The translations under genes were made by a program, and so were the position numbers. A stretch of DNA of 53,321 nt, from contig WRHL01000005.1 in NCBI GenBank assembly GCA_009783245.1, forward strand, positions 1 through 53,321, written 5' to 3'. Below, piece by piece: positions 19,101 to 53,321 of this stretch. The notes beneath the pieces were generated by a model. That model saw nothing but the letters and a program-made list of their open reading frames with translations, searched no databases and was not told the DNA's origin. Each line of letters starts with the position of its first letter. Position 1 is the stretch's first letter. The DNA is from Coriobacteriia bacterium (GTDB lineage Bacteria > Actinomycetota > Coriobacteriia > Coriobacteriales > UBA8131).

Positions 19101-19200
19101 AAGAAGCCTCCTTAGCAATCCATTCCCCTGGAGATGATTCACGCCCGGATGGTGGTGATCATCTGCGCCGCCACGCCCGGGCCACGTGTCAGTCCTTCCG

Positions 19201-20133
19201 TCACGCCCGGATGGTGGTGCCTGTTGTACCCTCAATCCCCTCTTTCGCCTTGCCCAGCAGCGTTATGAGCGCACTGCGCCCCGCGCCCGAGGAGGCGAAC
19301 TGCATGGCAGCCTGCACCTTGGGCAGCATGGAGCCGGGGGCGAAGTGCCCCTCCACTATATAGCGTTGGGCCTGATCGATGGAAAGCTCGCTGAGCCACT
19401 CCTCATCCGCGCGCCCAAAGTTGATGGCGACCTTCTCCACCGCGGTGAGTATGACGAGAAAATCAGCCTGGATCTGCTCTGCGAGGCAGGCGGCAGCGAA
19501 GTCCTTGTCCACCACCGCGCTGGCGCCCCTGAGGTGCAGGCCCTCCCGCATCACGGGGATGCCACCACCGCCAACGGCTATGGCTATCTGCCCGGCCGCC
19601 AGCAACGCCTTTATCGTCTGCTTCTCGATGATGTCGACAGGCCGAGGCGATGCGACCACGCGGCGGTACCCGCGGCCCGCGTCCTCCATCATGTCCATGC
19701 CACGCGCGACCATCTCCTGCGCCTCTTCTTGCGAGTAGAAGGCGCCGATGGGCTTGGTGGGGTTGGCAAAGGCGGGGTCGTCCTTGTCGACGACGGTCTG
19801 CGTGATGATGGTGGCAACGGGGGTCGAGTTGCCGCGCGAGAGCAGTTCCTCGCGCAGCGCGTTCTGCAGGTCATAGCCTATGTAGCCCTGGCTCATGGCC
19901 ACGCACATCGACATGGGGATGAAGGGGGTCTTTGCCTCGGTCTTGGCTGCGCTCTCAAGCGCCAGGTTGATCATTCCCACCTGCGGGCCGTTGCCGTGGG
20001 CTACTACCACCTCACACCCTGCTTCTACCAGGTCGGCTATGGCGCGGGCGGTCTGCTTGGCCGCCGCCATCTGCTCGTAGAGGTTGTCGCCTAAAGCGTT
20101 GCCGCCCAGAGCAATGACAATGCGCTTTCCCAT
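19201..20133 (-). CDS. arcC: Carbamate kinase
   Basis: MGKRIVIALGGNALGDN, VVAHGNGPQVGMI, GYRRVVASPRPVDI, VGGGGIPV, DKDFAAACLAEQIQAD. Confidence 0.95.
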   Translation of the reverse strand: MGKRIVIALGGNALGDNLYEQMAAAKQTARAIADLVEAGCEVVVAHGNGPQVGMINLALESAAKTEAKTPFIPMSMCVAMSQGYIGYDLQNALREELLSRGNSTPVATIITQTVVDKDDPAFANPTKPIGAFYSQEEAQEMVARGMDMMEDAGRGYRRVVASPRPVDIIEKQTIKALLAAGQIAIAVGGGGIPVMREGLHLRGASAVVDKDFAAACLAEQIQADFLVILTAVEKVAINFGRADEEWLSELSIDQAQRYIVEGHFAPGSMLPKVQAAMQFASSGAGRSALITLLGKAKEGIEGTTGTTIRA

Positions 20134-20137
20134 GACC

Positions 20138-21334: not shown

Positions 21335-21400
21335 GGTGGGTCCTCCTTTTGGCGTGGTTGTCCAAGCTTGTGGTGCTGGGTCAGAGTACTGGGTCAGTTA

Positions 21401-22624
21401 TCAGTTGGCGGCGATGCCGTCCTTATCGTTTTGATTGCAGTAGATAGCGGGGGTAGCGGCGTACACCGCGGCGCAGGTGACCAGGTCGCGCTTCCAGGTC
21501 TTCTCGTTGGGAGCGTGGGCCTCTTCTTCCTTGCCGGGGCCAAAGCCGATGCAGGGGATGCCGTAGCGGCCCATGATGGCGACGCCGTTGGTGGAGAAGG
21601 TCCACTTGTCGACCTTGGGCGTGCCGTACATGCCCTCATAGGCCTGCACCAGCGCCTGCGTGGCGGCGTGGTCCTTTGGGATGACCCAGGTGGGGAAATA
21701 GCACTCGGTGGGATAGACCAGGCCGGTGTAGCTGGGGCGGCTGTACTCGTACATGCTCACCACGGCGCCAAACTGCTGCACGGTTGGCAGCGCCCTGATC
21801 TCGTCGAGGGCCAGCTCCCAGGTCTCGCCGTCGGTCAGGCGCCGGTCTATGGAGATGGCGCATTTGTCGGCCACGGCGCAGCGTGAGGGTGACGAGAAGA
21901 AGATCTCCGACACCGCCAGCGTCCCTTTGCCCAGGAAGGGGTCGACATGGAGCCGGTTGTTGAGCTCTTCCACCTCGGCCAGGATCTTGGCCATCTTGTA
22001 GATCGCGTTGTCGCCGCGCTCAGGAGCTGAGCCGTGGCAGGATACGCCGGCGACCTCCACGCGGATCTCCATGCGCCCGCGCTGGCCGCGGTAGATGTTG
22101 CCGTTGGTGGGCTCGGTGATGACCACGAACTCAGGGCGGACCTGCTTCTCATTTATGAGGTACTGCCAGCACAGGCCGTCGCAGTCCTCTTCCTGCACGG
22201 TGCCGGTGACCAGCACCGTATAGCTGTTGTCGATAAGGCCAAGATCCTTCATGATCTTGGCGCCGTAGACGGCAGAGACAATGCCACCCAGCTGATCCGA
22301 GGTACCGCGGCCGCCGATCTCCGTGTCATTCTCAAAGCCCTCATAGGGGTCGAATTCCCAGTTGTCTGCGTTGCCAACGCCCACGGTGTCGATGTGCGCG
22401 TCAAAGCCGATGAGGGTCGCTCCCGTACCCAGGTAACCGAGCACGTTGCCCATGGGGTCTATCTCGACCTTGTCAAAGGAGAGCGCCTCCATCTCTTGGG
22501 CGATGCGCTTGACAACCGCTTCCTCGCCGGCGCTCTCGCCGGGGATGCGCACCAGGTCACGCAGGAACCTGGTCATATCTTGCTGGTAGTCCTCAGCAGC
22601 GTTCTTGATGCTCTCGAAGTCCAT
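21401..22624 (-). CDS. ygeY: YgeY-type M20 family hydrolase
   Basis: [57 protein letters not shown]; selenium-linked cluster context. Confidence 0.92.
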
Positions 22625-22688
22625 GATCTCTCCTCTTTGCTCAGCTGTTTCCTTTGCTGTACACCTGTTTTCCGGGTGCGCAGTTGCA

Positions 22689-22748
22689 AGCATACCACTG
22701 TTTGTGTGCAATATCAACTAATTTTTAGCACTAAAAATTATTATTTTG
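22689..22748 (-). promoter_or_regulatory. Sigma70-type promoter TTGATA-N17-TATGCT with upstream AT-rich element (ygeY operon)
   Basis: Minus strand: -35 at 22712-22717, -10 at 22689-22694, AATTTTTAG-TG-CTAAAAATT palindrome upstream. Confidence 0.75.
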
Positions 22749-23000
22749 TTTAAGAGGCTTGTGTTGGGCTTAGAGGGGAGGTTGGGAGGTGGCGCGTGCT
22801 GTCTGAGTGTGGTACCCTGCTAAGGACTCCTGAGAAAGCGTAGAGGAGTTCTGGAGGAGATGACCCATGAACGGCGCATTTACAAAGACGAGGTAACGAG
22901 CACCACCCTCACCCTCGTCACCAACAACAAATAGCCTGTCAATCACCGTGAGCCCGCCCTGAGTGCGCCTCACGCCTCCATAGATACGAGAAAACCAAAC

Positions 23001-24314
23001 ATGAATAAACCTGAACTCCCGGCTCAATGCCGTGTAGAACCTAAAGCCCAAACCGAGCCAGAGCAAGAGCTCTCCGCCCTTGGCACCCTCGTGCCTATGC
23101 GCTGGCGCAGCATAGTCACCATTGTGTGGCTCGGCCAGGCCATAGCCATTGTCGCAAGCGGCGCTGCTGCCTACGCCCTCATCTGGTACATCACCATCAC
23201 CACGGAAAGCCCGCTCATGCTCATGCTGGGCACCGTCTTCTTCTTCCTGCCCATGGCGATCATCGGCCCCTTCTCCGGCACCATCGTCGACCGCTACAGC
23301 CGCAAGGCCATCATGATCATCGCCGACCTCGGCATCGCCGTCTCCATGCTTGTCATGGCTTTCATCATCATGGCCGGCATGATATCGATACCGGTGGTCT
23401 TCATAGCTATTGCAGCAAGGAGCATCTGCACGGCCTTCCATCAGCCTGCCATGCTCGCCGCCATGCCGCTGCTGGTGCCCAGCCGCCACCTGGTCCGCAT
23501 CAACACGCTCGACCAGGCAGTCCAGGCGGCGGGTAACATAGTCTCCCCCGCCATTGGCATACTCTTCTTTGAGACCATCGGGCTTCAGGCGGCGCTCTTC
23601 GCCGACGTAGGCGGCGCGACCTTCGCCTGCCTCACCCTGGCAGCCGTCACCATCCCCGCCGCGCACATGGCCAAGGAACAACGCCAAACCGTCCGCGCCG
23701 ACATGCTGGCCGGCCTGCGCATCGTGCGCGATGTCAAGGGCCTGACCGCGCTCTTTGTCCTGTTAGCCATAGGCACCGCCGCTTTCATGCCGCTCGCCGC
23801 GCTCTATACCCTCATGACCTACAGCCACTTCGGCGGCGGCGGCTTTGAAGCGGCGCTGGTCGAGGCGGTCTTCGGCTCAGGCTTCCTCTTGGGCTCCATC
23901 ATCTTGACCATCTGGGGTGGCGGCAAACGCCTCATGTATGTAGTAGGCGCTTCCCTGGTCCTACAGGGCGCTACCTTCCTGGTGATCGGTTTCCTGCCGT
24001 CCAGCATGTTTGTGACCTTTGTGGTCATCTCAGGCATAAGCGCTGTCTTCGGCTCCTTCTTCAACGGGCCGCTCAACAGCATCGTGCAACGCTGCGTCAG
24101 CCCGGAGAGGCTCGGCCGCGTCATGGCGCTCATGGGCGTGGTCACCTCACTCGCCGCGCCCGTCGGCCTCCTCATAGCCGCGCCCCTGGCCGAGGTCATC
24201 GGCATCACCCCCTGGTTCATCCTGGGCGGCGCTGCCCTGATATCCATCGCCGTCATCGCGGCGCTGATGCCCACCGTGCGCACTCTCGACATCCGCAACC
24301 AGCAGCAGCCCTAG
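23001..24314 (+). CDS. MFS transporter
   Basis: Multi-TM MFS sequence (IIGPFSGTIVDRYSRKAIMIIADL, FNGPLNSIVQRCVSPERLGRVMALMG). Confidence 0.85.
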   Translation: MNKPELPAQCRVEPKAQTEPEQELSALGTLVPMRWRSIVTIVWLGQAIAIVASGAAAYALIWYITITTESPLMLMLGTVFFFLPMAIIGPFSGTIVDRYSRKAIMIIADLGIAVSMLVMAFIIMAGMISIPVVFIAIAARSICTAFHQPAMLAAMPLLVPSRHLVRINTLDQAVQAAGNIVSPAIGILFFETIGLQAALFADVGGATFACLTLAAVTIPAAHMAKEQRQTVRADMLAGLRIVRDVKGLTALFVLLAIGTAAFMPLAALYTLMTYSHFGGGGFEAALVEAVFGSGFLLGSIILTIWGGGKRLMYVVGASLVLQGATFLVIGFLPSSMFVTFVVISGISAVFGSFFNGPLNSIVQRCVSPERLGRVMALMGVVTSLAAPVGLLIAAPLAEVIGITPWFILGGAALISIAVIAALMPTVRTLDIRNQQQP

Positions 24315-24486
24315 CCTATGACGAGAAAGGCCGCGTCTCCCCTTACGCACTTTTGAGGGAGGTGCGGCCTCCCCTCGCCAGGCACACCTCCCCCACGCGC
24401 CTCCTTATAAAGGCAGCACTCCCAACCAGGTGTTGACGCATCTACGTGCGCCTGCAAGGGCTGGGGGAGACAGCGCTCCCATCCAG

Positions 24487-24545
24487 TCCCCTTTGTCACA
24501 TCCCAAAACGCCCCGTCCCCTTTGTCACATCCCTTTGTCACATCC
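24487..24545. repeat. GTCCCCTTTGTCACATCC repeat units
   Basis: Several copies matching the arrays at 1-116 and 17408-17646. Confidence 0.7.
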
Positions 24546-24573
24546 ACTATCCTCTATCTGTCATACTGTTCGC

Positions 24574-25260
24574 ATGGAACTGAGGACAGCAGCGATACTG
24601 CCGGTAGCAGGGCTTAGCTCGCGGATGGGTTTCTTCAAGCCCCTGGCGACCCTCTCCGGCTACCCCATGATCCGCCTGACCATGCAGGCTGCACTCGATG
24701 CCGGTGTGGATGAGGTGGTGGTTGTCTGCGGGAAGAACAGCGATGCGGTTCACCTGGCTCTGAAAAGCGCGGACGACGCCTGGGACTCAGCCCCCAGCCA
24801 GACGCCCCAACACCGCGTGCATTTTGTCTATAACAGCGCATTCGCCTCCAATGAGATGCTGGACTCCGTGAAACTGGGCCTTGGCAAGCTACTCGAACTG
24901 GAGCAGGCAGGCGCCCGCCTTGACGCGGCATTCGTCATACCGGGCGACATACCAGCCGTGAACCCGCAGACCTACAGCAAGCTCATCGCCCATCAGCAGG
25001 AGACAGGAGCCCCGGTATGCATCCCCAGCCGCAAGGGCATCACGGGGCACCCGGTCCTGTTCACCCGAGAGGTCTTCGACCTGGTATTGGCCTATACCGG
25101 TCCGGGCGGGTTGCGAGGGGCTATCACACCGTTGGTATCGTCATATCTGGAGACGGACGATAAGGGCGTCACCCTTGACGCAGACACCTTTGAGGACTTC
25201 CAGCAGCTCCAGGCCTACTTGGAGCACATAAGTGCAAACCCGTCATCCATCATCCACTGA
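24574..25260 (+). CDS. MocA-like nucleotidyltransferase (putative Mo-cofactor cytidylyltransferase)
   Basis: AAILPVAGLSSRMGFFKPLATLSGYPMI, IPGDIPAVNPQTYSKLI, GHPVLFTREVF. Confidence 0.8.
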   Translation: MELRTAAILPVAGLSSRMGFFKPLATLSGYPMIRLTMQAALDAGVDEVVVVCGKNSDAVHLALKSADDAWDSAPSQTPQHRVHFVYNSAFASNEMLDSVKLGLGKLLELEQAGARLDAAFVIPGDIPAVNPQTYSKLIAHQQETGAPVCIPSRKGITGHPVLFTREVFDLVLAYTGPGGLRGAITPLVSSYLETDDKGVTLDADTFEDFQQLQAYLEHISANPSSIIH

Positions 25261-40433: not shown

Positions 40434-40467
40434 CTTTCTATGATGCATCAGTAATATGGAGGTAAAA

Positions 40468-41712
40468 ATGAGAGTGCAAGATATTCCTGTGTTTGGCAAC
40501 TTATCAGATGTGCAAGTGATCTTCTCTGGCGTGAACATCGCCTGCCCTTTTGCAGCCTACCTCATGGCCGAGAACGGGGCGCGTGTTATCAACCTCGAGC
40601 CAGCTGAGCGACCGGAAAACGCCAGGTACAGAGCCCAACCCTATGGTTTCCTTTGTGAACGTAAGAATGAGCTTTGCGTTAACCTGAATATGTCGAGCGA
40701 AAAGGGCCAGGAGGTTTTTTTAGATTTACTCAAGACAACTGACATCTTTTTAGAAGGTTTTAAGGGCGGTACCTTTGAAAAATGGGGTTTGACGGATGAA
40801 CGTATGTGGGAAGCTAACCCAAAGTTGGTGATTGTTCATATCTCAGGTTTTGGTCAAACCGGTGTACCCGAATACGTGTCACGTGCATCCTATGACCCCA
40901 TTGGGCAGTGTCTTGGCGGTTATGTTTGGCTCAATGGTGAGCTCGATGGACAGCCGCAAACAGCCAAACCATATACCGGCGATTATGTAACAGCCCTATT
41001 TGCCTGCTGGTCAGCTTTAGCGGCTTTAGTTGGAGCACGCACAAACGGCAAGGGCGAGAGTGTGGATTTGGCAATGATCGAAGCATTATGGAAGATTCAG
41101 TATGACTACCCACTAGTATATTTTCGCGATGGCGTTGTCAAGGGCAGAATGGGCAATAATGACCCTAAGGTTATCGGCTTTGGCGCTTATGAGTGTGGAG
41201 ACGGTGAATACGTCTTCATCGCGCTCTCCGGTTTTGGGCCTGTGACTAAGATGGCTAAGGCCATAGGGTACTCAGATCCGGAGCTAGACCTTGAGAAAAC
41301 CATGATCCTGTTGCGCGGAAATCCTGTGCACACACGTTACGACGATGCTATTCACGAGTTCTGTATGCAACACACAGCCGCCGAAGTCGATGAATTAATG
41401 CTTAGGTTCAGTGTTCCCTGCTCCCGTGCCTATAACATTGAGTCAATCCAGGAGAACCCACAAGTCAAAGCGCGTGAGTTGTTTGGTGAATGGGAAGACA
41501 AGCACTTTGGAACCCTGAAAGCTATTAATCCTGTGCCGAAAATGAAGAACCGCCCACAACAGATTTGGACAGGAGTGCGTTATTGGGGAGAAGACAACGA
41601 CGACATCCTGAAAGATATAGGGTACAGCGAAGAAACTATAGAACAGCTCTACGAACAGGGAATCATTACTAGAACCCCTGAAAACGGAGGGTATCCCATA
41701 CCAGCTGTCTAA
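40468..41712 (+). CDS. Family III CoA-transferase, CaiB-like
   Basis: VIFSGVNIACPFAAYLMAENGARVINLE, TTDIFLEGFKGG, NPKLVIVHISGFGQTGVPEY; recognisably similar to E. coli CaiB. Confidence 0.92.
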   Translation: MRVQDIPVFGNLSDVQVIFSGVNIACPFAAYLMAENGARVINLEPAERPENARYRAQPYGFLCERKNELCVNLNMSSEKGQEVFLDLLKTTDIFLEGFKGGTFEKWGLTDERMWEANPKLVIVHISGFGQTGVPEYVSRASYDPIGQCLGGYVWLNGELDGQPQTAKPYTGDYVTALFACWSALAALVGARTNGKGESVDLAMIEALWKIQYDYPLVYFRDGVVKGRMGNNDPKVIGFGAYECGDGEYVFIALSGFGPVTKMAKAIGYSDPELDLEKTMILLRGNPVHTRYDDAIHEFCMQHTAAEVDELMLRFSVPCSRAYNIESIQENPQVKARELFGEWEDKHFGTLKAINPVPKMKNRPQQIWTGVRYWGEDNDDILKDIGYSEETIEQLYEQGIITRTPENGGYPIPAV

Positions 41713-41793
41713 TTAGTGTCGGCAGAGCTTGCCGCAGGGGCTTACCCCTGAGATAGATATCGATACACGAAACAAGAGGGAAAGAGGAGTTTG

Positions 41794-43098
41794 ATGAGCG
41801 AAGAGGCATTTGATGCAATTGTCGTTGGCGGTGGTGTTTCCGGTTGTGTGGCAGCATATGTAATGGCCAAAGAGGGGTTGAATGTCCTCCTGGTCGAACG
41901 TGGAGCCGAATGCGGCGAAAAGGAAATGACTGGTGGGAGGATTTACACTCATAGCTTAAAACAATATATGCCAGAGTGTTTTCAAGACGCACCTCTAGAA
42001 AGGCGTGTAGAAAAAGAACGTATCAGCTTCACTTATGACAACTCTGCGTTCACCGTTGACTATACTGAAGATCGAGATGCCGACCCGAAGAGAGACTCGT
42101 ACTCGGTTTTATCAAGCAGGCTTGTACGTTGGCTGGGAGAGAGAGCGGAAGAGGCAGGCGCTATGGTAGCCTGCGGTATCCGCGTCGATGATCTGTTGAT
42201 ACATGATGGCAGGGTTTCGGGCATCATCGCCGGCGATGACGTACTGGAGGCAAAAGTCGTCGTCTTAGCCGACGGGGTAAATTCCCTTTTGGCCGAGAAG
42301 GCAGGTATCGAGCGTGATGTCAGCGCCCATCGTATGGCAGTGGGAGTAAAAGAGCTGATTGAGCTTGACGAGGAACAGATCTGTGATCGATTCGGTGTCG
42401 AGCAAGGCAAGGGTGTTGCCTGGCTCTTCGCTGGTGGTGTTACTGAAGGCGCATATGGTGGCAGCTTTCTTTATACCAACAAAACCTCTGTCTCCCTAGG
42501 CTTGATTCGTACTCTGAGTGATATTGAAAAAGGTGAATTGAGCCTACCCGCCCAACTTGATGCTTTCAAAAAACACCCGGTTGTGGCCCCTTTGCTGAAA
42601 GATGGAAAAACAATCGAATACTCTGGCCATATGGTTCCCGAACCCGACTTGGACTTTGTCCCTGGTGGCAAGCAGCTTCATGTGCCAGGTTGTATTGTGG
42701 TAGGCGATGCAGCAGGCCTGATAATCAACATCGGTTTCATGGTCCGTGGTTTGGATCTTGCTGTTGCGTCAGGTGGAATTGCTGCTCGGGCTATCGCCGA
42801 AGCTCATGCGAATAAGAAACTGGATTCGGCAGGTTCGCTGTACGAGCAATATCTAAAAGACAGCTTCATTTTGCAGGATATGGATGTTTATAAGCGCTTT
42901 CCTATCATTATGACAAATCATCGCATCTTTAATGAGTACCCGCAGATGCTTACTGGTCTGATGTCAGATATGTTTGTACTAAACCCCGACGAGCACTCGA
43001 AGCCAGTTATGGGTAGAGCGATGGCTCGTATCAAAGAAGCCGGTGGAATTCGCTCTTTCTTAAGGGATTTTCGTGGTTTTGCTAAAGCGTTGAGATAG
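41794..43098 (+). CDS. FixC-like ETF-quinone oxidoreductase family flavoprotein
   Basis: FDAIVVGGGVSGCVAAYVMAKEGLNVLLVERG, GDAAGLIINIGFMVRGLDLAVASG. Confidence 0.92.
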   Translation: MSEEAFDAIVVGGGVSGCVAAYVMAKEGLNVLLVERGAECGEKEMTGGRIYTHSLKQYMPECFQDAPLERRVEKERISFTYDNSAFTVDYTEDRDADPKRDSYSVLSSRLVRWLGERAEEAGAMVACGIRVDDLLIHDGRVSGIIAGDDVLEAKVVVLADGVNSLLAEKAGIERDVSAHRMAVGVKELIELDEEQICDRFGVEQGKGVAWLFAGGVTEGAYGGSFLYTNKTSVSLGLIRTLSDIEKGELSLPAQLDAFKKHPVVAPLLKDGKTIEYSGHMVPEPDLDFVPGGKQLHVPGCIVVGDAAGLIINIGFMVRGLDLAVASGGIAARAIAEAHANKKLDSAGSLYEQYLKDSFILQDMDVYKRFPIIMTNHRIFNEYPQMLTGLMSDMFVLNPDEHSKPVMGRAMARIKEAGGIRSFLRDFRGFAKALR

Positions 43099-43111
43099 TA
43101 AGGATGCAATC

Positions 43112-43402
43112 ATGACACAGTATCTGAATGTAGATGGCCTGCTTGGAATAGATAGATTCAATGTTGATGAGCATACTGCACATATTGAATTAAACAAGGA
43201 CTGGAAAAATGAAGTGGAAATAGATCGACTTGTCAGAGCATGTCCTGCGGGTCTCTACCGATATAACGATTGTGGCGAACTGATATTTGACTATGCAGGA
43301 TGCCTTGAGTGCGGAACATGCAGGGTATTGGGGCTTGGAAACGTAGTTGAGAAATGGGAGTGGCCACAAGGTGGTTTTGGAGTCTCTTATCGCTACGGAT
43401 GA
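43112..43402 (+). CDS. FixX-like ferredoxin
   Basis: ACPAGLYRYNDCGELIFDYAGCLECGTCRVL. Confidence 0.92.
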   Translation: MTQYLNVDGLLGIDRFNVDEHTAHIELNKDWKNEVEIDRLVRACPAGLYRYNDCGELIFDYAGCLECGTCRVLGLGNVVEKWEWPQGGFGVSYRYG

Positions 43403-43477
43403 TTCAGGTAATACAAACCATGAAAGAATACTTTAACACTATCACCCGTCATGTAGGGTTGAAGACAGGATTGCCAA

Positions 43478-44488
43478 ATGTTTGAGCAGTATCCCAACAT
43501 TTTTTGTATTCCTGTGCCCTTGGGAGAGGGTTTCGCTGGTCACACAAATTGTTATGTACTGAAAACTGAAGCCGGTGTTGTCCTGATAGATTTTGGATGG
43601 AATGCGGAAGAGTCGTTTCTCACGCTCACAGCAAATCTAAACAAGGCGGACGTGTCGCTTAGGGACATCAGATATCTTGTCGCCACCCACACACACCTTG
43701 ATCACTATGGTCTGATAAATCGTTTGCGTCTGCTTACCGATGCATCTCTGGTTGTGCACAGGTTGGACTATCAGCTTTCTGCAGAGCAACAAGCTCTAGC
43801 TGGATCAACTCTGGAAGAGCCGGGGAAAGAAGGGGGGTTGCACCGTGAGAAGGAGTGGTTACGTGCTTGTGGGATGTCGGGGAATGGCCTGACTTCTCTG
43901 GCAGAGATGTTGAAATCACCCATACATGTCAATGGTGATGTGTTTCCTGACCTCTGCGTTGGTGGTGGTGAAGTAATCAGCTTGGGCTCGATTAATCTGG
44001 AAATACTTTGGACTCCTGGCCACACAAAGGGACACATTTGCCTCTTTGATAAAGAGAGAAGGATTCTCTTCTCGGGAGATCATGTTCTTGAGGAAGCAAC
44101 TCCGAATATTGGATTAGAGATGGATATCGACAGTAATCCACTTGCCGACTATCTCTCTTCTCTCAAACACCTGGAAGAACTGGATATACACCTGGTGCTC
44201 CCTGGACACGGCAAACCATTTGGAAGCCTTAACAAGCGCATTGAAGAGATCTGCCTACACCATACAAATAGACTTAAAGAGATTCATGGCCTCTGCGTAA
44301 AAGAAGCAAAGTCTGTTTTTGAGATTGCGGAGAAAACTGCCTGGTTTGCCCCATGGAGTGAACTGCCTTTGTACAGTAAGCGCGCAGCTCTTGCAGAGGC
44401 TCTGGCTCACACAGAGCTTTTGTATTCCCGAGGTTTGTTAAAAAAGGGAATAGAAGACGGGGTGTTTCTTTATTCGCAAACTGAATGA
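43478..44488 (+). CDS. MBL-fold metallo-hydrolase
   Basis: ATHTHLDHYG, TPGHTKGHICLF, FSGDHVLEEATPNI, LVLPGHGKPF. Confidence 0.92.
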   Translation: MFEQYPNIFCIPVPLGEGFAGHTNCYVLKTEAGVVLIDFGWNAEESFLTLTANLNKADVSLRDIRYLVATHTHLDHYGLINRLRLLTDASLVVHRLDYQLSAEQQALAGSTLEEPGKEGGLHREKEWLRACGMSGNGLTSLAEMLKSPIHVNGDVFPDLCVGGGEVISLGSINLEILWTPGHTKGHICLFDKERRILFSGDHVLEEATPNIGLEMDIDSNPLADYLSSLKHLEELDIHLVLPGHGKPFGSLNKRIEEICLHHTNRLKEIHGLCVKEAKSVFEIAEKTAWFAPWSELPLYSKRAALAEALAHTELLYSRGLLKKGIEDGVFLYSQTE

Positions 44489-44538
44489 CGTATGCGGCCT
44501 TCGATCTGACCGCCAAACAAGTCCGACGAGGAGAAAAG

Positions 44539-46131
44539 ATGCAACAAACCTCTTATTTTCTTAGAAGAAGCAGTTCAATGTGGCCAGATCGTCTGGCGGT
44601 GGTATCAGGTGATACCGAGCTTACCTATTGCCAATTAAACAAAGTCGCTAATAAATGGGCTTCTGCACTCAAAGCATATGGGATACATGCAGGCAGTCAT
44701 ATAGTTTATGTTGTGAATAACAGCGCTGGCGCCGTAACGATATGGGAGGCTACTCAAAAGATCGGGGTTTGCGCAGTTCCGCTGAATACCCGTCTTGATG
44801 AGAAAACAATGACAGACATGTTAATGCTCATCGAGGCTCAGGCAGTGATTTTCGACTCAAAAAACGCTCAGAAAACCATTAATGTGCTTCGCTCCATCGA
44901 TTACCAAGGCCTGGTGATATCTCTCGAGAGTGAACAGGGTGCTTCCTGCTGCGAAATGCAAGATATTAGCGGCACGGTCTTTGATGAAGAGGCTTTCCTG
45001 TTGATGGGGACAGAGGATGAAATCGATGCAGACTATCCTTCCAATACACCCTCTCTCATTCTTTTTACCAGTGGAACAACAGACAAACCAAAAGCTGTAT
45101 TGAGAACAAGGCAGATGGTTTTCGATATTTCCATTGTGCAGATGATTGAGAACAGAAATTTGGATGGAACGCTCGATGTCATGTACTCGCAAAACCCTCA
45201 CTACCATTATGGAGGGATTATCCTGATGTTAAAAATGTGCGCTCTCGGAGGGACGCTAATAACAGAAGCACGCTTTGACCCGAAGAGGGCTGCTCAAATG
45301 ATAGAGCACTATCGAGCAACACAGGTTTTTATGATTCCCCCTACCCTGTTCACCCAAATGTTTCTATCCAAGGTATGGCAGGATCATGATTTGAGTTCTG
45401 TAAGACAGGCGCAGTGTTCAGCCGGGGCATCGAGTTGCAAAATATCAGAAGCCGTCTTCCAAATGTTTCCAAATACACGATTTCGAGTTTCATATGGCGC
45501 TTCTGAGTCAGGCAGCCCCACTTCAGCAAGTTTCACACAAGAGCAACTTGTAAGGCGTCCTGAGCTGGCTTCGTCAATCGGTAGGCTCAACGCGAATGTT
45601 GAAATGAGGTTAGTTTCCGACTCAGGTCGCCCATGCAAGACTGGTGAAGTTGGAGAAGCCCTTGTCAGATCCTCCGTTGTATTTGCAGGATATATAGGAC
45701 AACCAGAACTAACACTGCAAGCTTTTGAACAAGAAGGCTGGTTGCATACCGAGGATCTCATGCGAAAGGATGAAGAGGATTATTATTTCTTGGTGGGCCG
45801 ATCACGAGATATCGTAAAGTCCGGTGGTGAGAATGTATACGCACAAGAGGTTGAGCGCTGTTTGAATGAATTCCCCTCGATTGTCGACAGTGCTGTAATC
45901 GGCATGCCAGATGAGTGGTTTGGAGAGGTGGTTGCTGCGGCCATCGTACTGGATCATGATACAGAAAACATCGATATCAAGGGCCTGCTTGAATTCTGCG
46001 AATCAAAGATGCCGAGTTACATGAAACCAAGATATTTGGCACGAATGGAAAAGCTTCCAACAAACAGTATCGGAAAGATCCAAAAGAGTGAGCTTCGCGC
46101 ATGCCCAGAATTATTTAAGAGGATTCGGTGA
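44539..46131 (+). CDS. Acyl-CoA ligase (class I adenylate-forming, CaiC-like)
   Basis: LILFTSGTTDKPKAVLRT, VSYGASESGSPTS, GWLHTEDLMRKDEEDYYFLVGRSRDIVKSGGENVYAQEVE, PTNSIGKIQK. Confidence 0.93.
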   Translation: MQQTSYFLRRSSSMWPDRLAVVSGDTELTYCQLNKVANKWASALKAYGIHAGSHIVYVVNNSAGAVTIWEATQKIGVCAVPLNTRLDEKTMTDMLMLIEAQAVIFDSKNAQKTINVLRSIDYQGLVISLESEQGASCCEMQDISGTVFDEEAFLLMGTEDEIDADYPSNTPSLILFTSGTTDKPKAVLRTRQMVFDISIVQMIENRNLDGTLDVMYSQNPHYHYGGIILMLKMCALGGTLITEARFDPKRAAQMIEHYRATQVFMIPPTLFTQMFLSKVWQDHDLSSVRQAQCSAGASSCKISEAVFQMFPNTRFRVSYGASESGSPTSASFTQEQLVRRPELASSIGRLNANVEMRLVSDSGRPCKTGEVGEALVRSSVVFAGYIGQPELTLQAFEQEGWLHTEDLMRKDEEDYYFLVGRSRDIVKSGGENVYAQEVERCLNEFPSIVDSAVIGMPDEWFGEVVAAAIVLDHDTENIDIKGLLEFCESKMPSYMKPRYLARMEKLPTNSIGKIQKSELRACPELFKRIR

Positions 46132-46138
46132 ACACCTC

Positions 46139-47683
46139 ATGGCAAAAAAACAACGCTCCCCCTGGTTTATCTATATTTCGCTTTTAGTAGCAAACTTCAC
46201 AATTTATGAGTCAATGGCTTTTCAGGCAACAGCGATTCCCTCAATTGTTGCTTTCTTTGAGATTTCTGTCGGGAATTCTGCTTTCATCCAAACTTGTTTT
46301 TATCTTGGGTGCACAGTTTTTATGCCCATTTTCGGACGAGTCGCTGATGTATTTGGTCGGAGACGAATCCTTCTCATTGCAATGGTTGTTTTTGCTATTT
46401 CTGAAGCTTTAGCTGCGCTCAGTCCTAATTTCCCCGTCTTCCTTTTTGCGCGATTTATACAGGGTCTTGCTACTGCCGCCATTCTCCCTGCCGCTATTGC
46501 ATACGCTCGATTGCTCTTTCCAACAAAAGGCCAGGGGAAGGCTTTGGGAACCTATACGTTGTTTTCCTCTATAGGAGCGCTGACCGGAGCCTTCATCTCA
46601 GGACTCTTGGTCGACACCTTTGGGTGGCCTTCCATTTACTGGTGTAGCATGCTTATTGCCGTGGCGGGCTTCCTGATTGTTTTCTTCATTATTCCAGAAA
46701 CAGAGCGTTCAGAGGGGGTATCGTATGATTTTGCTGGTGCGATGGCAATGTTCATTGGTATTGGTTGTATATTGATCCTTCCCAATGTTATTACGTTTTT
46801 TGGTTTCCAGTCTATTGTCTTTTCCCTTGTGATTACTGGGGCTATTCTTGGGCTTGTAGCTTTTTGGATCATAGAAGGAAAAGTATCTCACCCCATCATG
46901 GATAAGAGTGTTTTGAAAAGCAGAGCCTTCATTATTCCGGGCCTGGTAATCTGCTTGGCTGTCGTTGTAATGAATGGGACAGTCTATATGCTGTCATTCT
47001 TCCTACAGCGAGCTATGGGCTTTAATGCTTCACAGACAGCATTTGTCCTTATGTTCTTGTACATAGGAACTGGCTCCGGAGCCTTTCTCAGTGGTTGGTT
47101 GATGGAAAAACTCTCTCCAAGATACCTTATCAACAGCGGAATAATACTTGGAATACTTGGTGTCTTTCTCTTTTCACACATTAATCCTGATACTCCCACC
47201 TGGTATATCATCATTTCTGTGATGATATTAGGGTTTGGCGTGGTCAGCTGTGTGCCCGCAGTTAATAAGACGGGCATTTCTGTAATGCATCCCAGTAAGA
47301 TGGGGGCAGGCGCAGGAGCCCTGTCAACAATGAAGGAGCTTGGATCACCTCTTGGGAGTGCGTTTTCTCTTACAGTATTCGGTACACTTACAAGCATCTT
47401 CACTGCCGCATCTTTGGTTAGTAAGGCACGTGATGCCAACCTGCCAGAAAGCATTATTACTCGCCTTGAACAATTACAGCCTGGCGATGTTGCCAGTCAG
47501 GAATTAATGGACCAACTGAGCGCCCATGGAATCAGTTATGCCGAATTACAGCATGCTGCAAATATCGAAGGTATGTTTTCAGCTGTACATGATGTGTCAC
47601 TTATCCTCCTTGCACTTGCTGTTTTGGTATTCCTCCTATCTCTTGCTATTCCTGTGGTTCGCCCAGCATACAACAGTAAGTAA
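46139..47683 (+). CDS. DHA2-type MFS transporter
   Basis: AFQATAIPSIVAFFEISVGNSAFIQT, GRVADVFGRRRILLIA, LGTYTLFSSIGALTGAFISGLLVDTFGWPSIYW. Confidence 0.9.
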   Translation: MAKKQRSPWFIYISLLVANFTIYESMAFQATAIPSIVAFFEISVGNSAFIQTCFYLGCTVFMPIFGRVADVFGRRRILLIAMVVFAISEALAALSPNFPVFLFARFIQGLATAAILPAAIAYARLLFPTKGQGKALGTYTLFSSIGALTGAFISGLLVDTFGWPSIYWCSMLIAVAGFLIVFFIIPETERSEGVSYDFAGAMAMFIGIGCILILPNVITFFGFQSIVFSLVITGAILGLVAFWIIEGKVSHPIMDKSVLKSRAFIIPGLVICLAVVVMNGTVYMLSFFLQRAMGFNASQTAFVLMFLYIGTGSGAFLSGWLMEKLSPRYLINSGIILGILGVFLFSHINPDTPTWYIIISVMILGFGVVSCVPAVNKTGISVMHPSKMGAGAGALSTMKELGSPLGSAFSLTVFGTLTSIFTAASLVSKARDANLPESIITRLEQLQPGDVASQELMDQLSAHGISYAELQHAANIEGMFSAVHDVSLILLALAVLVFLLSLAIPVVRPAYNSK

Positions 47684-47748: not shown

Positions 47749-49071
47749 TTACAACAGTGAGCGCTTCCCTGGGTAAAGCGGAGAGAAGTCGGTTACCTGC
47801 TCGACCTGGACGTATAACTGCAGTAAACCATCCTCATGGAGTTTCGCAAAGGGTTCTGTTCCCCACAAAAGGTCTGCCACGGTCTCCTCGTCGACTGGGT
47901 TTCCTTCCAAGACCTGCACAAATACATCCAATATTAAGCACGTATCGCTGAATTCCGCCTTGAAATCCATGATGCCAGGCAGAGTAAAGAGTGCGTCTTC
48001 TAACTCAGGCATGCCAAAGCTCCACCGCTCAAGACCGACCGTATCGCATAGCCGGCCCCTCACCCTGTCGATGCGCTTGAGGGCGGAGCCGCAGCGGCAG
48101 GCTCCCGGCAGCAGGCGTGCCCGGTCGCCCGTGCGGTAGCGGATGAAGGGCATAGCCTGCTGATTGATGGTGGTGAAGACCAGCTCGCCCCAGGTGCCGT
48201 CGGGCAAAAGCTCGCCGGTATCAGGGTCGATGACCTCGAAGAGCAGATCCGTCTCCCTGATGTGACAACCCTTATGTTGATCGCACTCCACCGCTCCGCC
48301 AAAGGCGAATTCCGTCATGCCAAAGTGGTTGTAGACCGGCACACGCCAGATCCGCTCGATCTCTTTTGTCAGGGTTGGCCCGGCGTGGTCAGCTGAGAGC
48401 AGGACAGCCCTCAGCTTTAACTCTATGCTGTTATGCTCACACCAGCGAGCAAAGGCGAACAGGTGCTGGGGGAAGCCCACCAGCGCCCTGACCTGCTCCT
48501 CTTTGCAGCTTGCTGCCAGCTCTGAGAAGCTTTTGGGTATGCCATAGGGAAGGGCTCTGCCTGGCACTTTGGTCACAGCCTCGCTGATGAGCTGCCCCAG
48601 GCCACCGGGGCGCTCGCAGGGGTAGAGCACGGCGATGCACTCCCCCTCTGCGGCGAGCATGCGCATGCCTGCTGTGAAGTACTCGACAGTCCTTGCGTGG
48701 TCTGCCTCCGTGAAAGCGATGCGTTTGGGCGGGCCCGTGGTGCCGCTGGTTGGCAGGGTGACTATGCGGCTGATCCCCTGCGCATCAACGCAGAGTAGGG
48801 GCTCAAAGCCCTGGGCAAAGGCTGCTGCATCCATCAGTGGCAGGGTTTTGAGCTCTTCAAGCGAGCCGAGTCTATCTATGGGCAGGTGCTGCTGGTAGAA
48901 GCGGCTTCTCTGTCTTGCCCGAGCAAGCGTTGTGTTGAGGCGCTGCAGCTGCAGCGCTCTGAGCTCAGCTTCTGTCAGCGACCCCTCGATGCCTTGTTGT
49001 ACATCGAAGGCCCAGGCCAGATAGCCGGGACTTTTTCTGAAAGGACTCCCTGGGTTGGCGGTGTCAGTCAC
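47749..49071 (-). CDS. PaaK-like AMP-dependent CoA ligase (DVU_1553-like)
   Basis: TLPTSGTTGPPKRIAFTEADHARTVEYFTAGMRML, YNHFGMTEFAFGGAVEC, IRYRTGDRARLLPGACRCGSALKRIDRVRGR; GTG start overlaps upstream TGA (GTGACTGA). Confidence 0.83.
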   Translation of the reverse strand: MTDTANPGSPFRKSPGYLAWAFDVQQGIEGSLTEAELRALQLQRLNTTLARARQRSRFYQQHLPIDRLGSLEELKTLPLMDAAAFAQGFEPLLCVDAQGISRIVTLPTSGTTGPPKRIAFTEADHARTVEYFTAGMRMLAAEGECIAVLYPCERPGGLGQLISEAVTKVPGRALPYGIPKSFSELAASCKEEQVRALVGFPQHLFAFARWCEHNSIELKLRAVLLSADHAGPTLTKEIERIWRVPVYNHFGMTEFAFGGAVECDQHKGCHIRETDLLFEVIDPDTGELLPDGTWGELVFTTINQQAMPFIRYRTGDRARLLPGACRCGSALKRIDRVRGRLCDTVGLERWSFGMPELEDALFTLPGIMDFKAEFSDTCLILDVFVQVLEGNPVDEETVADLLWGTEPFAKLHEDGLLQLYVQVEQVTDFSPLYPGKRSLL

Positions 49072-50395
49072 GGTACAGGCTTCTTCCCTGGGTATCGCTG
49101 AGGTTATAGGCACAGAAGGGAACCAGGTTGCCACGCTGGTCCATCTCAAAGATGTAGCAGCGCCGCAGGCGTTCGAAGTCCATGCTGAAAGCATCCATGA
49201 AAGCCATGCCGGTGATGGAGAAACCGCGCGCCTTTGTCTGCCAGAGGAACTCATCCAGGGAACCTGACGGGGGCTTCTCTGCAGGAATCGCAGCGAGGTC
49301 TGTCCCCCAGCGGCGCAGTTGGATGTCCTGCGCACGCGTGACGGGGTCTGGGGTGCAACAACTTGGCTCTTCAACAGGCGTTGTGCAGCAGGGGGTTTGC
49401 TTTGCTCCCAGGGGTTGGAGTCGGCCTTCAGCATCAATGAGATAGTTCGCGTTGAAGGAGCAGTGGGCCTGCTCAACGCTTCCACCTGAGAAGTGGCTGA
49501 GTTGGATCATCCCGCTACTCTGCTCCTCCATGAGCGCAAGTACCTCAGGTATGGTCAACCTGTCAGCCTCAACACCGCAGCGGCCAATGCGACTCAACGG
49601 CTGGATATGGACGCCGCGCACCACAGGGCTTTGGGAGATCCCATAGGAGATCACGCCCATAAGCTCAGCATCATTGATACCCTTTGCCAGGGTGGGTACC
49701 AGCACCACCGGCAGGTCTGCAGCTCCGCAATTATCAATGGCGCGTTTCTTCAAGCCCAGGATCCCAGCGCCCCGCAGCCACATGCCAGCCTGCTCGCTGA
49801 TACCGTCGAACTGCAAGAAGACGCAGGTCAGACCCGCATCTTTCAAGCGCCATGCAAGCCCTGCATCCTCTGCGAGCAGTATGCCGTTGGTGTTGAGTTG
49901 GAAGTAGGTGAACCCCCGTTCCCTGCCCAACTGGATGATCTCACATAGGTCGTGACGCAGTGTTGGTTCTCCCCCACTGAGTTGGATGTGGCAGGCCCCC
50001 GCCTTCTCCAACAACGTGTCATACCAGCTGGCAATGGTCTTCAGGCTGGGGTCATCCCCCGCCGCAGAGCCGGCGCTTGCAAAGCAGACTGGACAGCAGA
50101 GGTTACAACGCTGTGTGACTTCAAAGAGTACGCAGCAGGGGCGCACTTCATGTTGTGTGCAGTCAACGCAGCCATCGGGACAGGAAGCCAGCTCACCGGG
50201 AGAGCAACAAGAAGCGCCACCTTGAGTTTCCTTCTCCCAACCCTCAAAGGGCAACTCCCGTGACCAGGCCAGCGTAGAGAAACTCCCATGCTCCGGACAG
50301 GTTTTCTCCAGATAAACTCCATCTGTGCCCTCGACACGCCAAGCGGGAATCGCCTGCAGACAAACCGGACACACGCTCCCCGTCTCGCATCTCAA
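49064..50395 (-). CDS. Radical SAM protein, TrsS-like
   Basis: FEVTQRCNLCCPVCFASAG (CxxxCxxC), IQLSGGEPTLRHDL, many CC pairs and N-terminal CPVC; TTG start with AAGGAGG RBS. Confidence 0.82.
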   Translation of the reverse strand: MRCETGSVCPVCLQAIPAWRVEGTDGVYLEKTCPEHGSFSTLAWSRELPFEGWEKETQGGASCCSPGELASCPDGCVDCTQHEVRPCCVLFEVTQRCNLCCPVCFASAGSAAGDDPSLKTIASWYDTLLEKAGACHIQLSGGEPTLRHDLCEIIQLGRERGFTYFQLNTNGILLAEDAGLAWRLKDAGLTCVFLQFDGISEQAGMWLRGAGILGLKKRAIDNCGAADLPVVLVPTLAKGINDAELMGVISYGISQSPVVRGVHIQPLSRIGRCGVEADRLTIPEVLALMEEQSSGMIQLSHFSGGSVEQAHCSFNANYLIDAEGRLQPLGAKQTPCCTTPVEEPSCCTPDPVTRAQDIQLRRWGTDLAAIPAEKPPSGSLDEFLWQTKARGFSITGMAFMDAFSMDFERLRRCYIFEMDQRGNLVPFCAYNLSDTQGRSLYRD

Positions 50396-50452
50396 TTCCC
50401 TTTTCCTCCTTGTTAAGACTTCCTCGAGTTACTCTTTGAGATTGCTCTGCAT

Positions 50453-50878
50453 TCACGTAAGGCAATTGAACGGGTTCACTATCCTCAGCTTGCCATCAAC
50501 CAATAAGCCATCGGACATATCTTCGCTGTACAATATGGTGCATTCGGCTTCCAGTGCTGAGGCTACAATCAGGGAATCGTAGTACGAGAGATGATATCTT
50601 TCCAGCAGCTTAAAGGTGCGCATAATACAGGATATGTCGATTGTTTTGACAGTGAACACCTCTGCCAATGTGAGGGTAAGCGCCCTGACTCTTTCAAGAG
50701 GTATATTCTTCTTCCTAATGAGCACATTAGCTATCTCACTCATTACCTGCGTCGAGATACAGGCTTCTTTGCAGTGGTCGATGGCCTGTTGAGCCTTTGC
50801 TCTTTTTACAGGATCATCACTCGATTGGGTGTAGACCAATACGTTTGAATCGATGAACGCTCTCTCATTTTCGCTCAT
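50453..50878 (-). CDS. PIN-domain ribonuclease toxin (VapC-like)
   Basis: AFIDSNVLVYTQSSDDPVK, STQVMSEIANVLIRK, LSYYDSLIVASALEAECTILYSEDMSDGLLVDGKLRIVNPF. Confidence 0.85.
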   Translation of the reverse strand: MSENERAFIDSNVLVYTQSSDDPVKRAKAQQAIDHCKEACISTQVMSEIANVLIRKKNIPLERVRALTLTLAEVFTVKTIDISCIMRTFKLLERYHLSYYDSLIVASALEAECTILYSEDMSDGLLVDGKLRIVNPFNCLT

Positions 50879-51074
50879 GAAGCTCATCCCTATCAAAGAG
50901 AAGGTCATCTGTTGTGATGCCGATGAAGGGCAGCCTTTCGCTTCTTCTGGGCCTAGCGTATACACCTATGACGGTTCCTCGATTGGTGACTTCGATCTCT
51001 TCTTCCTTACCTTCAAGAACAAGGCTTGAATAGTGCCCGAAGTTCTGTTTGAATTGTGTGGAATTGACCCTCAT
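50865..51074 (-). CDS. Phd/VapB-like antitoxin
   Basis: VNSTQFKQNFGHYSSLVLEGKEEEIEVTNRGTVIGVYARP; overlaps the PIN toxin. Confidence 0.8.
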   Translation of the reverse strand: MRVNSTQFKQNFGHYSSLVLEGKEEEIEVTNRGTVIGVYARPRRSERLPFIGITTDDLLFDRDELHERK

Positions 51075-51261
51075 GACTACTCCTTTCGCTGTACTTGTTC
51101 ATTATAGAATATATACATGATCATTTACAATTTGATAGTGACCATTTACTTGATATTATGATGACTACTCCATGATGCCCATGCTTTCAAAGCGGTGAGA
51201 GGCCTTGCACATGGTGATAAAATAAAGGCTTGTCTGAGAGGCAAGCGATAAGGGAGGATGC

Positions 51262-51687
51262 ATGGACCTGTTCGAGCGGATGCTCAAGCTCTCCGCACAG
51301 GGTTTCGCCTGTGCGCAGATCATGATGATCCTGACGCTTGAGGCTGAGAACACGGAGGACCCGGACCTCATCCGCACGCTGGGCGCCCTGAACAACGGCT
51401 TTCGTGACAACGGCCTCATCTGCGGCGCCTTCACCGGCGGCGCGTGCATGCTCAGCTATTACGCGGGCCAGGGCGAGGCAGTTGAGGTCGCTGACCCGGA
51501 CTATGACGCCATGACGCAGGAACTGTTCGCCTGGTTCAGCGCGCAGATCGGCGAGCGCTTTGGCAGCATCACCTGCCCCGGCATACTCGAAGGCGACGCG
51601 GCGAACAAGCGCAGCCGCTGTCCCGACATTGTCGAGCAGACCTTTAATAAGGCCATCGAGATCCTCGATGAGCGCGACCTCCTCTAG
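51262..51687 (+). CDS. C-GCAxxG-C-C family (DVU_1555-like) redox protein
   Basis: GFACAQ, LICGAFTGGACMLSYYAG, ITCPG...SRCPDIVEQTFNKA cysteine pattern; GGGAGG RBS. Confidence 0.82.
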   Translation: MDLFERMLKLSAQGFACAQIMMILTLEAENTEDPDLIRTLGALNNGFRDNGLICGAFTGGACMLSYYAGQGEAVEVADPDYDAMTQELFAWFSAQIGERFGSITCPGILEGDAANKRSRCPDIVEQTFNKAIEILDERDLL

Positions 51688-51714
51688 CTTTCCATAACGA
51701 TAAGGACGGGTCTT

Positions 51715-52878
51715 TTGCTGCCAGAATCCCTCATCTACCTCAACAATGCCGCGACCTCCTGGCCAAAGGCGCCTGGTGTTACCGAGGCCGTAGCGCAGGC
51801 CCTGCGCCAACCGCCTGGCGCTGCGAACCGCGGCGGCATTGAGGACTTCGACGTCATGGGCGCCCTGCGCAAGGAGCTTTGCTGTGTTTTGGGGGTTACG
51901 GATCCCTCACGCATCGCCCTGGGGGCAAACGCCACCTGGGGGCTTAACGTGGGCATCTTTGGTCTGGGACTTACGGCTGGCGACTGCGTGCTCACCACCA
52001 AGGCCGAGCATAACTCGGTGCTGCGGCCGCTCTATGCGCTCAGCCAGGGCGCTGGAGTTAAGGTGCATTACCTGGATACCGACAGGTTTGGGCGTGTACC
52101 AGTTGGAACGTGGTCTGCTGCCATCGCTAAGTTGCAGCCGCAACTGTGTGTCTGCACGCATGCCTCCAATGTCACCGGCGCAGTCAATGATGTGGCCGCC
52201 CTTGCCGCCGCGGCCCATGCGGGCGGCGCCCTCCTCCTGCTTGATGTGGCACAAAGCCTGGGCTGGCTTGACGTCGCATTGGAGGAGTGGGGTGTTGACC
52301 TGGCAGCCTTCACCGGGCACAAGTACCTGCTGGGACCGCAGGGCATAGGCGGCCTGTATGTGCGACCAGGGCTTGACCTTATCCCCCACCTGGTGGGTGG
52401 TACCGGCATCCATTCTGACAGCGAGCTTATGCCGCCTGAGATGCCGCTGCACCTGGAGGCTGGCACTGGCAATGAGCCCGGAGCCTACGGCCTCTTGGCA
52501 GCGTTGAGTTGGCTGCGGGAGAACCCGCTGACCGCTGATGCGCATGACGCTATAGAAGCAGAGCTGCAGTTCCTCAAAGCCGCGCTTTCGGAACTGGGAG
52601 CAATCGTTATAGACCCCGGACCAGGCGGTACCCCGGTCCTCTCCTTCACCTTTGCTGACATGACGCCCCAGGATATCGGCAGTCTTCTCTGTGACAGCTA
52701 TGACATTGTGGTGCGCACCGGGCTGCATTGTGCGCCATACATCTTCAGTTGCCTGGATGTCGATCCAACAGAAGGAACCGTGCGCGTGAGCCTCAGCCGC
52801 TTCACCATCCACGCAGAGATCCTGGCCTTCATCGAGGCCATGCGAGACATCATCACCTCATCCGCGGGCTGGAGCTGA
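51715..52878 (+). CDS. Class-V aminotransferase fold PLP enzyme (cysteine desulfurase/selenocysteine lyase-like, EF2568 type)
   Basis: IYLNNAATSWPKAPGV, TKAEHNSVLRPL, FTGHKYLLGPQGIGGLYVR, active-site loop RTGLHCAPY. Confidence 0.9.
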   Translation: MLPESLIYLNNAATSWPKAPGVTEAVAQALRQPPGAANRGGIEDFDVMGALRKELCCVLGVTDPSRIALGANATWGLNVGIFGLGLTAGDCVLTTKAEHNSVLRPLYALSQGAGVKVHYLDTDRFGRVPVGTWSAAIAKLQPQLCVCTHASNVTGAVNDVAALAAAAHAGGALLLLDVAQSLGWLDVALEEWGVDLAAFTGHKYLLGPQGIGGLYVRPGLDLIPHLVGGTGIHSDSELMPPEMPLHLEAGTGNEPGAYGLLAALSWLRENPLTADAHDAIEAELQFLKAALSELGAIVIDPGPGGTPVLSFTFADMTPQDIGSLLCDSYDIVVRTGLHCAPYIFSCLDVDPTEGTVRVSLSRFTIHAEILAFIEAMRDIITSSAGWS

Positions 52879-52880
52879 AC

Positions 52881-53162
52881 ATGCGCTTTGAGTCCAAGAA
52901 GATAGAGAATTGCTTTACCGACGCCGAGAATCACGAGTATCGCATCGAGGTCACCGGCGAGGAGTTCCTCCTGCTCCTTAAGGAGAAGACTGCCTCAGTC
53001 AAGGTCAACCGCCAACTGCGCCGCCCAGCCTTTATGGCAGAACTCAAGGACGGCACGCGCCTTAAGGGTATACTCGAAAAACCCGTCATCAAGGTAGGCT
53101 ACCCCCAGGACTCCGCTGCAGAGCAAAAAGCCCTCTTCGAGTCTTGGCTCTCTTCCCTATAG
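52881..53162 (+). CDS. 93-aa conserved-looking hypothetical protein
   Basis: Starts 3 nt after the aminotransferase stop codon; MRFESKKIENCFTDAENHEYRIEVTGEEFLLLLKEKTASVKVNRQ... Confidence 0.65.
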   Translation: MRFESKKIENCFTDAENHEYRIEVTGEEFLLLLKEKTASVKVNRQLRRPAFMAELKDGTRLKGILEKPVIKVGYPQDSAAEQKALFESWLSSL

Positions 53163-53236
53163 CTACTTTTCAGCAGACAACCCCACAAACCTCCCAACGT
53201 TGCGCATAGGCAACGCTCCCACTTCAATGCTGCCGA

Positions 53237-53260
53237 CCCTTGCACATGCGCCTGCAAGGG
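53237..53260. terminator. 8-bp stem hairpin CCCTTGCA-N8-TGCAAGGG
   Basis: Direct reading, downstream of the right-hand operon; could equally be a REP-type repeat. Confidence 0.4.
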
Positions 53261-53321
53261 TCTACCGGCTGCAAGCCCTATAATACTCCCGTCATTGCGA
53301 GCGCAGGCGAAGCCGGAGCGC

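Follow-up and report, generated by a model that had tools for sequence, protein, structure and literature searches.

A five-gene TrsS locus at the end of a contig

The stretch of DNA analysed here (the window) covers one contig (C5, 53321 bp) from end to end and comes from a 1.99-Mb draft genome (G000, 79.7% complete) of a Coriobacteriia bacterium. Close to its right end, at 47749-53162, lies a locus of five genes arranged in two divergent halves, one of which encodes TrsS, a radical S-adenosylmethionine (SAM) enzyme. The features of the locus are as follows.

47749..49071, reverse strand: PaaK-like adenylate-forming (coenzyme A, CoA) ligase of the DVU_1553 family (NF045666, 385 bits, above the cut-off of 300)
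49064..50395, reverse strand: TrsS, radical SAM enzyme similar to the tetraether lipid synthase Tes, with motifs for a rubredoxin-like site and auxiliary clusters (NF045646, 509.5 bits, above the cut-off of 490)
About 50453-51074, reverse strand: VapBC/Phd-like toxin-antitoxin pair, with a PIN domain (PF01850) and an antitoxin of 69 aa that was recognised by reading the sequence
51262..51687, forward strand: C1555, putative redox or metal protein of the DVU_1555 family with a C-GCAxxG-C-C motif (NF045669, 151.9 bits, above the cut-off of 103; PF09719)
51715..52878, forward strand: class-V pyridoxal phosphate (PLP) enzyme, cysteine desulfurase-like, type II, SufS-like (TIGR01977, 279 bits, below the cut-off of 377)
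52881..53162, forward strand: small conserved protein of 93 aa and no described family, directly 3' of the desulfurase gene (start at about 52881)

All five genes that an earlier note on this DNA had described are present, and the NCBIfam profiles place TrsS, the ligase and C1555 above cut-off in the three families that it had named. The toxin-antitoxin pair, which sits between the two halves with 44% G+C (55-62% in the genes of the locus), is an insertion outside the TrsS system. The window is the whole contig and stops 160 bp beyond the locus, which is thus truncated on its right side. The last positions (53200-53321) carry a CCGTCATTGCGAGCGCAGGCGAAGC tail of the CGTCATTGCGAGC type that resembles a dispersed bacterial repeat, the likely cause of the break in the assembly.

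TrsS clusters of the main clade are paired with a molybdenum aldehyde oxidoreductase

Searching the genome collection with a single TrsS sequence found nothing, whereas an alignment of two sequences recovered 80 named TrsS loci, which were mapped by tblastn and placed in a tree. We profiled 51 genomes, which the tree assigns to a main clade (44) or to a sister clade (7), and counted neighbouring genes in the loci with full flanks, i.e., 8 kb on both sides (34 in the main clade). In these 34 loci TrsS is accompanied by an aldehyde oxidoreductase (AOR) in 32, a dicluster oxidoreductase in 33, the redox protein DVU_1557 in 32, the DVU_1556 methyltransferase in 31, the ligase in 32, an XdhC protein in 26, C1555 in 26 and a nucleoside triphosphate (NTP) transferase in 25. 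At the level of genomes, AOR exceeds its cut-off in 41 of the 44 members of the main clade, and two of the remainder have split or frameshifted genes. TrsS therefore co-occurs with a molybdenum hydroxylase, as the earlier note had anticipated. Its statement that DVU_1551-1557 lie beside an AOR of the xanthine oxidase (XO) family also agrees with the homologous clusters of the Desulfovibrionaceae, which are so arranged.

The pairing is one-to-one in the two taxa that we searched. The window's class is represented by 251 genomes; two of them, from different families, have TrsS over cut-off, and these two alone have AOR over cut-off, a coincidence with a chance of 1 in 31375. In the order to which Lachnoclostridium An196 belongs (196 genomes), four genomes have AOR, and the same ones have TrsS, which is over cut-off in three and reaches 486.6 bits in the fourth (G413). 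Taken together, AOR and TrsS are in the same six of 447 genomes. NCBIfam already names most families of the cluster as AOR-linked (NF045646, NF045663-NF045669), including NF045664, the 'XdhC family aldehyde oxidoreductase maturation factor'; the one-to-one pairing in two taxa is new as far as we could check. A fitness paper on D. vulgaris makes no mention of DVU155x, and the AOR that it treats is the tungsten enzyme DVU1179.

The genome of the window carries the same partners on another contig. An AOR over cut-off (NF045668, 1136.9 bits, cut-off 1100) matches at C34:29-2740; its gene starts 14 bp into the contig (L044:14-2878) and is directly followed by the dicluster oxidoreductase (NF045663, 626 bits, cut-off 530; L044:2893-5217), so that the two span C34:14-5217. 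The closest solved relatives of this AOR are those of D. gigas (1sij, E=4e-253) and D. desulfuricans. Its catalytic loop reads GLSELFQ instead of GVGELPLT, with the glutamate kept, as is typical of a subgroup that scores about 1110-1170 bits, and similar loops are found in AORs of Oscillospiraceae. Two genomes of the same family have the same set of genes. In G501 (L147), AOR, the dicluster oxidoreductase and NuoE/NuoF adjoin the genes for the small protein, desulfurase and C1555 and for TrsS. In G506 (L146), MocA- and XdhC-like genes adjoin the ligase and TrsS, followed by C1555, desulfurase and small protein, and then by NuoF/HoxU-like genes.

The earlier note had coupled the locus to a molybdenum hydroxylase and pointed to two features of the window, both of which exist: a cluster with a selenium-dependent xanthine dehydrogenase (Se-XDH; TIGR03311, 1286 bits, 7705-10263) and a MocA/DVU_1551-like nucleotidyltransferase (24430..25260, forward strand), the latter below both cut-offs (NF045665, about 137 bits, cut-off 315; TIGR03310, 108 bits, cut-off 186). 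The nucleotidyltransferase is a probable candidate for the step that forms the molybdopterin cytosine dinucleotide, and its homologue in L146 adjoins XdhC and the TrsS ligase. The locus is indeed coupled to such an enzyme, but to the MOP-type AOR on C34 and not to the Se-XDH of the window. We rejected the latter as a general partner, since it is found in only 2 of the 34 fully flanked loci of the main clade.

TrsS shares the mapped metal sites of Tes and is probably translationally coupled to its ligase

The match of TrsS to NF045646 covers its full length. It does not reach the cut-off of the Tes family (290 bits, cut-off 450), but its predicted structure (pLDDT 89) matches Tes (7tol) over the whole length, with a TM-score of 0.80 and E 3e-38, and Tes is a far better structural match than MoaA. 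In Tes, the rubredoxin site is bound by C9-X2-C12-X20-C33-X2-H36, the N-terminal cluster by C73, C77, C80 and a histidine, and the SAM cluster by CX3CX2C, while the C-terminal cluster has the labile Met439 (PMC9433317). The counterparts in TrsS are C9/C12/C33/H36 (rubredoxin), C72/C76/C79/H82 (N-terminal) and C97/C101/C104 (SAM), and M397 aligns with Met439 once the construct offset of 20 is taken into account. In the C-terminal region, C413 and C428 each fall opposite a cysteine of Tes; the third cysteine of that cluster is perhaps C312, where the alignment is uncertain. All three cysteines are invariant in 48 sequences. Given the conservation of the mapped ligands, Tes-like activation of a C-H bond through a carbon-sulfur intermediate is the natural reading, and TrsS probably performs radical chemistry of this type. 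We considered a pterin substrate, as the Pfam name 'HMPTM' would imply, and dismissed it: the pterin methylation once ascribed to MJ0619 could not be corroborated in the work on the Tes structure (PMC9433317).

The ligase, whose nearest solved structure is PaaK (4r1l, E=4e-34), lies directly downstream of TrsS (<400 nt) in 41 of the 67 loci of the main clade. In the window, its start is most likely the GTG at 49071, within CGTGACTGA, and the open reading frame from 49485 is only an extension of the frame. This GTG overlaps the stop codon of TrsS, so the two genes are probably translationally coupled.

The desulfurase, the 93-aa protein and the selenium question

The class-V enzyme misses the cut-offs of both TIGR01977 (EF2568; 279 bits, 377 needed) and SclA (213 bits, 525 needed). 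The earlier note's description of it as EF2568-like thus stands for the class and the likeness but not for the equivalog, and we call it class-V cysteine desulfurase-like. That it functions as a cysteine desulfurase is most likely, because the PLP lysine (FTGHK) and the catalytic, persulfide-forming cysteine (RTGLHCAP) align with those of the SufS-type structure 5b7s. Homologues are found within the TrsS cluster in seven named loci and in the two genomes of the same family. The 93-aa protein matches nothing in Pfam or NCBIfam; the earlier note had listed it as a small unknown protein. It is a conserved member of the cluster, with C11, R48, P49, K62 and G63 invariant in an alignment of nine sequences. 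Its AlphaFold model is confident (pLDDT 94.7), and no structure in the PDB matches the fold with better than E=0.25. Two things are new as far as we could check: the desulfurase/small-protein variant of the cluster, which besides the window is present in seven named loci and in two genomes of the same family, and the family of the 93-aa protein, whose confident model has no match to a known fold.

Haft and Self place EF_2568 beside the selD gene EF_2567, in line with the earlier note, which had gone on to suggest that the locus acts in the delivery of sulfur or selenium to the cofactor of the molybdenum hydroxylase or in its modification. The distribution of the selenium genes speaks against a role for selenium. 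Of the 51 genomes, 25 have SelD over cut-off (23 of the 44 main-clade genomes) and 13 have YqeB over cut-off (11 of the 44). Neither was found in G024, a 99% complete genome with the full canonical cluster. In the genome of the window, the best match to SelD has 52 bits (cut-off 125) and YqeB has no match; that genome being incomplete, this absence alone is weak. In the seven genomes of the desulfurase/small-protein variant that were checked (six named loci and the window's own), SelD is over cut-off in two, and those without it include the isolates Lachnoclostridium An196 and Megasphaera paucivorans. The cluster is thus independent of SelD, a selenium role is no general property of it, and the desulfurase most likely works with sulfur. 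The rejection of a general selenium requirement is also new as far as we checked.

TrsS itself occurs elsewhere as a selenoprotein. In a 2026 review it is among the selenoprotein families, with reference to Haft and Tolstoy 2025 (mSystems). Among the 80 TrsS loci, only one (L120) has an in-frame TGA, near the end of the match. The TrsS gene of G413 (C98:10727-11986) has two in-frame TGA codons and is likely a selenocysteine form.

The Se-XDH of the window belongs to a cluster at 7705-25260 with SsnA, YgfK, diaminopropionate (DAP) ammonia-lyase, carbamate kinase, YgeW and YgeY, in a genome that is negative for SelD and YqeB at cut-off. L072 and L073, from SelD-negative drafts, also have a Se-XDH-like gene. 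The TIGR03311 'selenium-dependent' family may have selenium-free members, or these drafts may be incomplete.

Proposed function and alternatives

We consider it likely that the locus is one arm, cut by the edge of the contig, of a system dedicated to the biogenesis of a MOP-type molybdenum AOR similar to that of Desulfovibrio, and that this maturation probably involves sulfur rather than selenium. The class-V enzyme would remove sulfur from cysteine as a persulfide, which would be passed, perhaps with the help of the 93-aa protein and C1555, to an XdhC-type chaperone. The chaperone would hold the cytosine-dinucleotide cofactor made by MocA, on which the sulfur would become the Mo=S ligand. NifS4 and XdhC of Rhodobacter provide a precedent for sulfur transfer from a desulfurase to XdhC (PMC2997495). 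TrsS and the adenylating ligase, usually with the methyltransferase, may use Tes-like chemistry to build or attach an organic group: a 5'-deoxyadenosyl radical would abstract hydrogen from an unreactive carbon, which would be held by a sulfur of the C-terminal cluster. The group would be needed by the AOR or by its electron-transfer partner. More tentatively, the radical coupling by TrsS, ligase and methyltransferase might build an unprecedented organic modification (on the molybdopterin dinucleotide, on the AOR polypeptide or in the form of a dedicated redox carrier), with the gut variant supplying sulfur through its own desulfurase and 93-aa protein.

A number of observations weigh against a biogenesis system of this kind. 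Within the genome of the window, no overlap of contig ends joins C5 to C34; the DVU_1551 NTP transferase (NF045665) is below cut-off, the shorter MocA-like protein being the best match; and NF045664 has only a partial match of 164 bits on C49 (cut-off 350, in a genome 79.7% complete). Neither the DVU_1556 methyltransferase nor DVU_1557 was seen in the window or in the C34 and C44 stretches, the rest of the genome having had no dedicated search for them. We know of no unusual pterin modification in the solved AOR of D. gigas. The sister clade (L096, L101, L102 and L111, from Methanomassiliicoccales, Syntrophorhabdus and Dehalococcoidia) weighs in the same direction. Its proteins pass the TrsS cut-off (545-564 bits in the three tested), yet AOR is over cut-off in none of its seven genomes, and AOR, XdhC, NTP transferase and C1555 are all absent from its loci. 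The neighbours there are corrinoid-binding and RACo proteins, a URO-D family protein or Hdr-like proteins. We thus rejected the idea that TrsS is an AOR-only family. The ligase accompanies TrsS in all six fully flanked loci of this clade, which implies that the product of the two need not concern molybdenum.

The same loci provide an argument for a separate module, in which TrsS, ligase and DVU_1556 methyltransferase make a small lipophilic or redox molecule (an electron carrier) for a dicluster/Hdr-like oxidoreductase, which would leave XdhC, MocA/DVU_1551, desulfurase and C1555 as the only proteins acting for the molybdenum cofactor. In these loci, besides the ligase, the methyltransferase and dicluster-like genes are partly kept. 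TrsS, moreover, most resembles an enzyme that couples lipids. However, main-clade TrsS is tied to AOR as closely as to the dicluster protein (32 and 33 of 34 loci), and a more distant group of TrsS-like proteins favours a role related to molybdenum, since its genes adjoin molybdenum oxidoreductases of another superfamily (the dimethyl sulfoxide (DMSO) reductase family) and DUF169 proteins. The genome of the window encodes one such paralogue (contig C44, L034:12439-13908; 378 bits, below cut-off), next to molybdopterin oxidoreductases, NrfD and a ferredoxin-DUF169 protein, and in G024 (L035) a MobA-like gene adjoins the equivalent gene. We see the separate module as a possibility, less probable than AOR biogenesis. 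The contexts of the sister and distant proteins show the TrsS-ligase unit to be portable, so that its action on the molybdenum cofactor is conjectural. Of the earlier note's proposal that the locus acts on this cofactor, the link to a molybdenum hydroxylase holds, while the part of TrsS and ligase is called into question by the clade lacking AOR.

A catabolic operon, in which AOR oxidises an aldehyde, the PaaK-like ligase makes the CoA ester of the resulting acid and TrsS and the rest supply the substrate, would fit the family of the ligase and the carboxylic acids that AORs produce. It would leave unexplained the overlap of ligase and TrsS genes, the conservation of XdhC, NTP transferase and desulfurase, and the pairing of ligase and TrsS in loci that lack AOR, and we think it unlikely. 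Least probable of all is selenium delivery, with the desulfurase acting as a selenocysteine lyase and the locus producing the selenium ligand for the Se-XDH of the window: a gene of that family lies 40 kb away and adjoins the cluster in two related loci (L072 and L073), the TIGR01977 family is the proposed selenocysteine lyase beside orphan selD and TrsS selenoproteins exist elsewhere, but the SelD and YqeB profile, the five of seven variant genomes without SelD, the unmet SclA and EF2568 cut-offs and the rarity of Se-XDH in fully flanked loci leave it very little room.

Other genes in the window

An AT-rich run at 40456-47683 (46.7% G+C) encodes a CaiB-like CoA-transferase, a FixC-like flavoprotein, a small ferredoxin-like protein, a metallo-beta-lactamase-fold hydrolase, an AMP-dependent ligase and a major facilitator superfamily transporter. 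It resembles a separate CoA-linked catabolic operon.

Significance and comparison with known systems

The MOP aldehyde oxidoreductases are among the structurally best known molybdenum enzymes, and they are co-inherited with a widespread set of genes that, as far as we found, has no published function. The one-to-one pairing, in the groups tested, of AOR with a radical SAM enzyme that has the metal sites of Tes points to an unseen chemistry of the cofactor or to an unseen partner molecule. The profile of the genomes makes a clear test possible: sulfur is expected and selenium is not required.

The closest parallel is the DVU_1551-1557 region of D. vulgaris and the corresponding NCBIfam set of TrsS, DVU_1551-1557 and pterin_aldehy families, with which the locus shares gene families and, in the same genome, the AOR and the dicluster protein. 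It differs in its two divergent halves and in the addition of a class-V desulfurase and a 93-aa protein, while DVU_1551 and the XdhC-related protein are under cut-off in this incomplete genome. The NifS4-XdhC pair of Rhodobacter likewise clusters a desulfurase with maturation genes for an XO-family enzyme, and the catalytic lysine and cysteine are also found in the enzyme of the window; this one is of the SufS-like/EF2568-type subfamily and has an extra small partner, and contact with XdhC is here only presumed. The selenium-dependent molybdenum hydroxylase system (SelD, YqeB, YqeC and EF_2568) resembles the cluster in its XO-family enzyme, its XdhC/MocA-type helpers and an EF2568-like protein, but in the cluster SelD and YqeB are not required across genomes and the partner is not the TIGR03311 Se-XDH. 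Finally, TrsS matches Tes/GDGT-MAS (7TOL, 7TOM) in its whole-length fold and keeps the mapped rubredoxin-like, N-terminal and SAM ligands, the labile methionine and two cysteines of the C-terminal region. The two differ in family score and in their middle region, and TrsS is found in bacteria, where it is clustered with a molybdenum enzyme.

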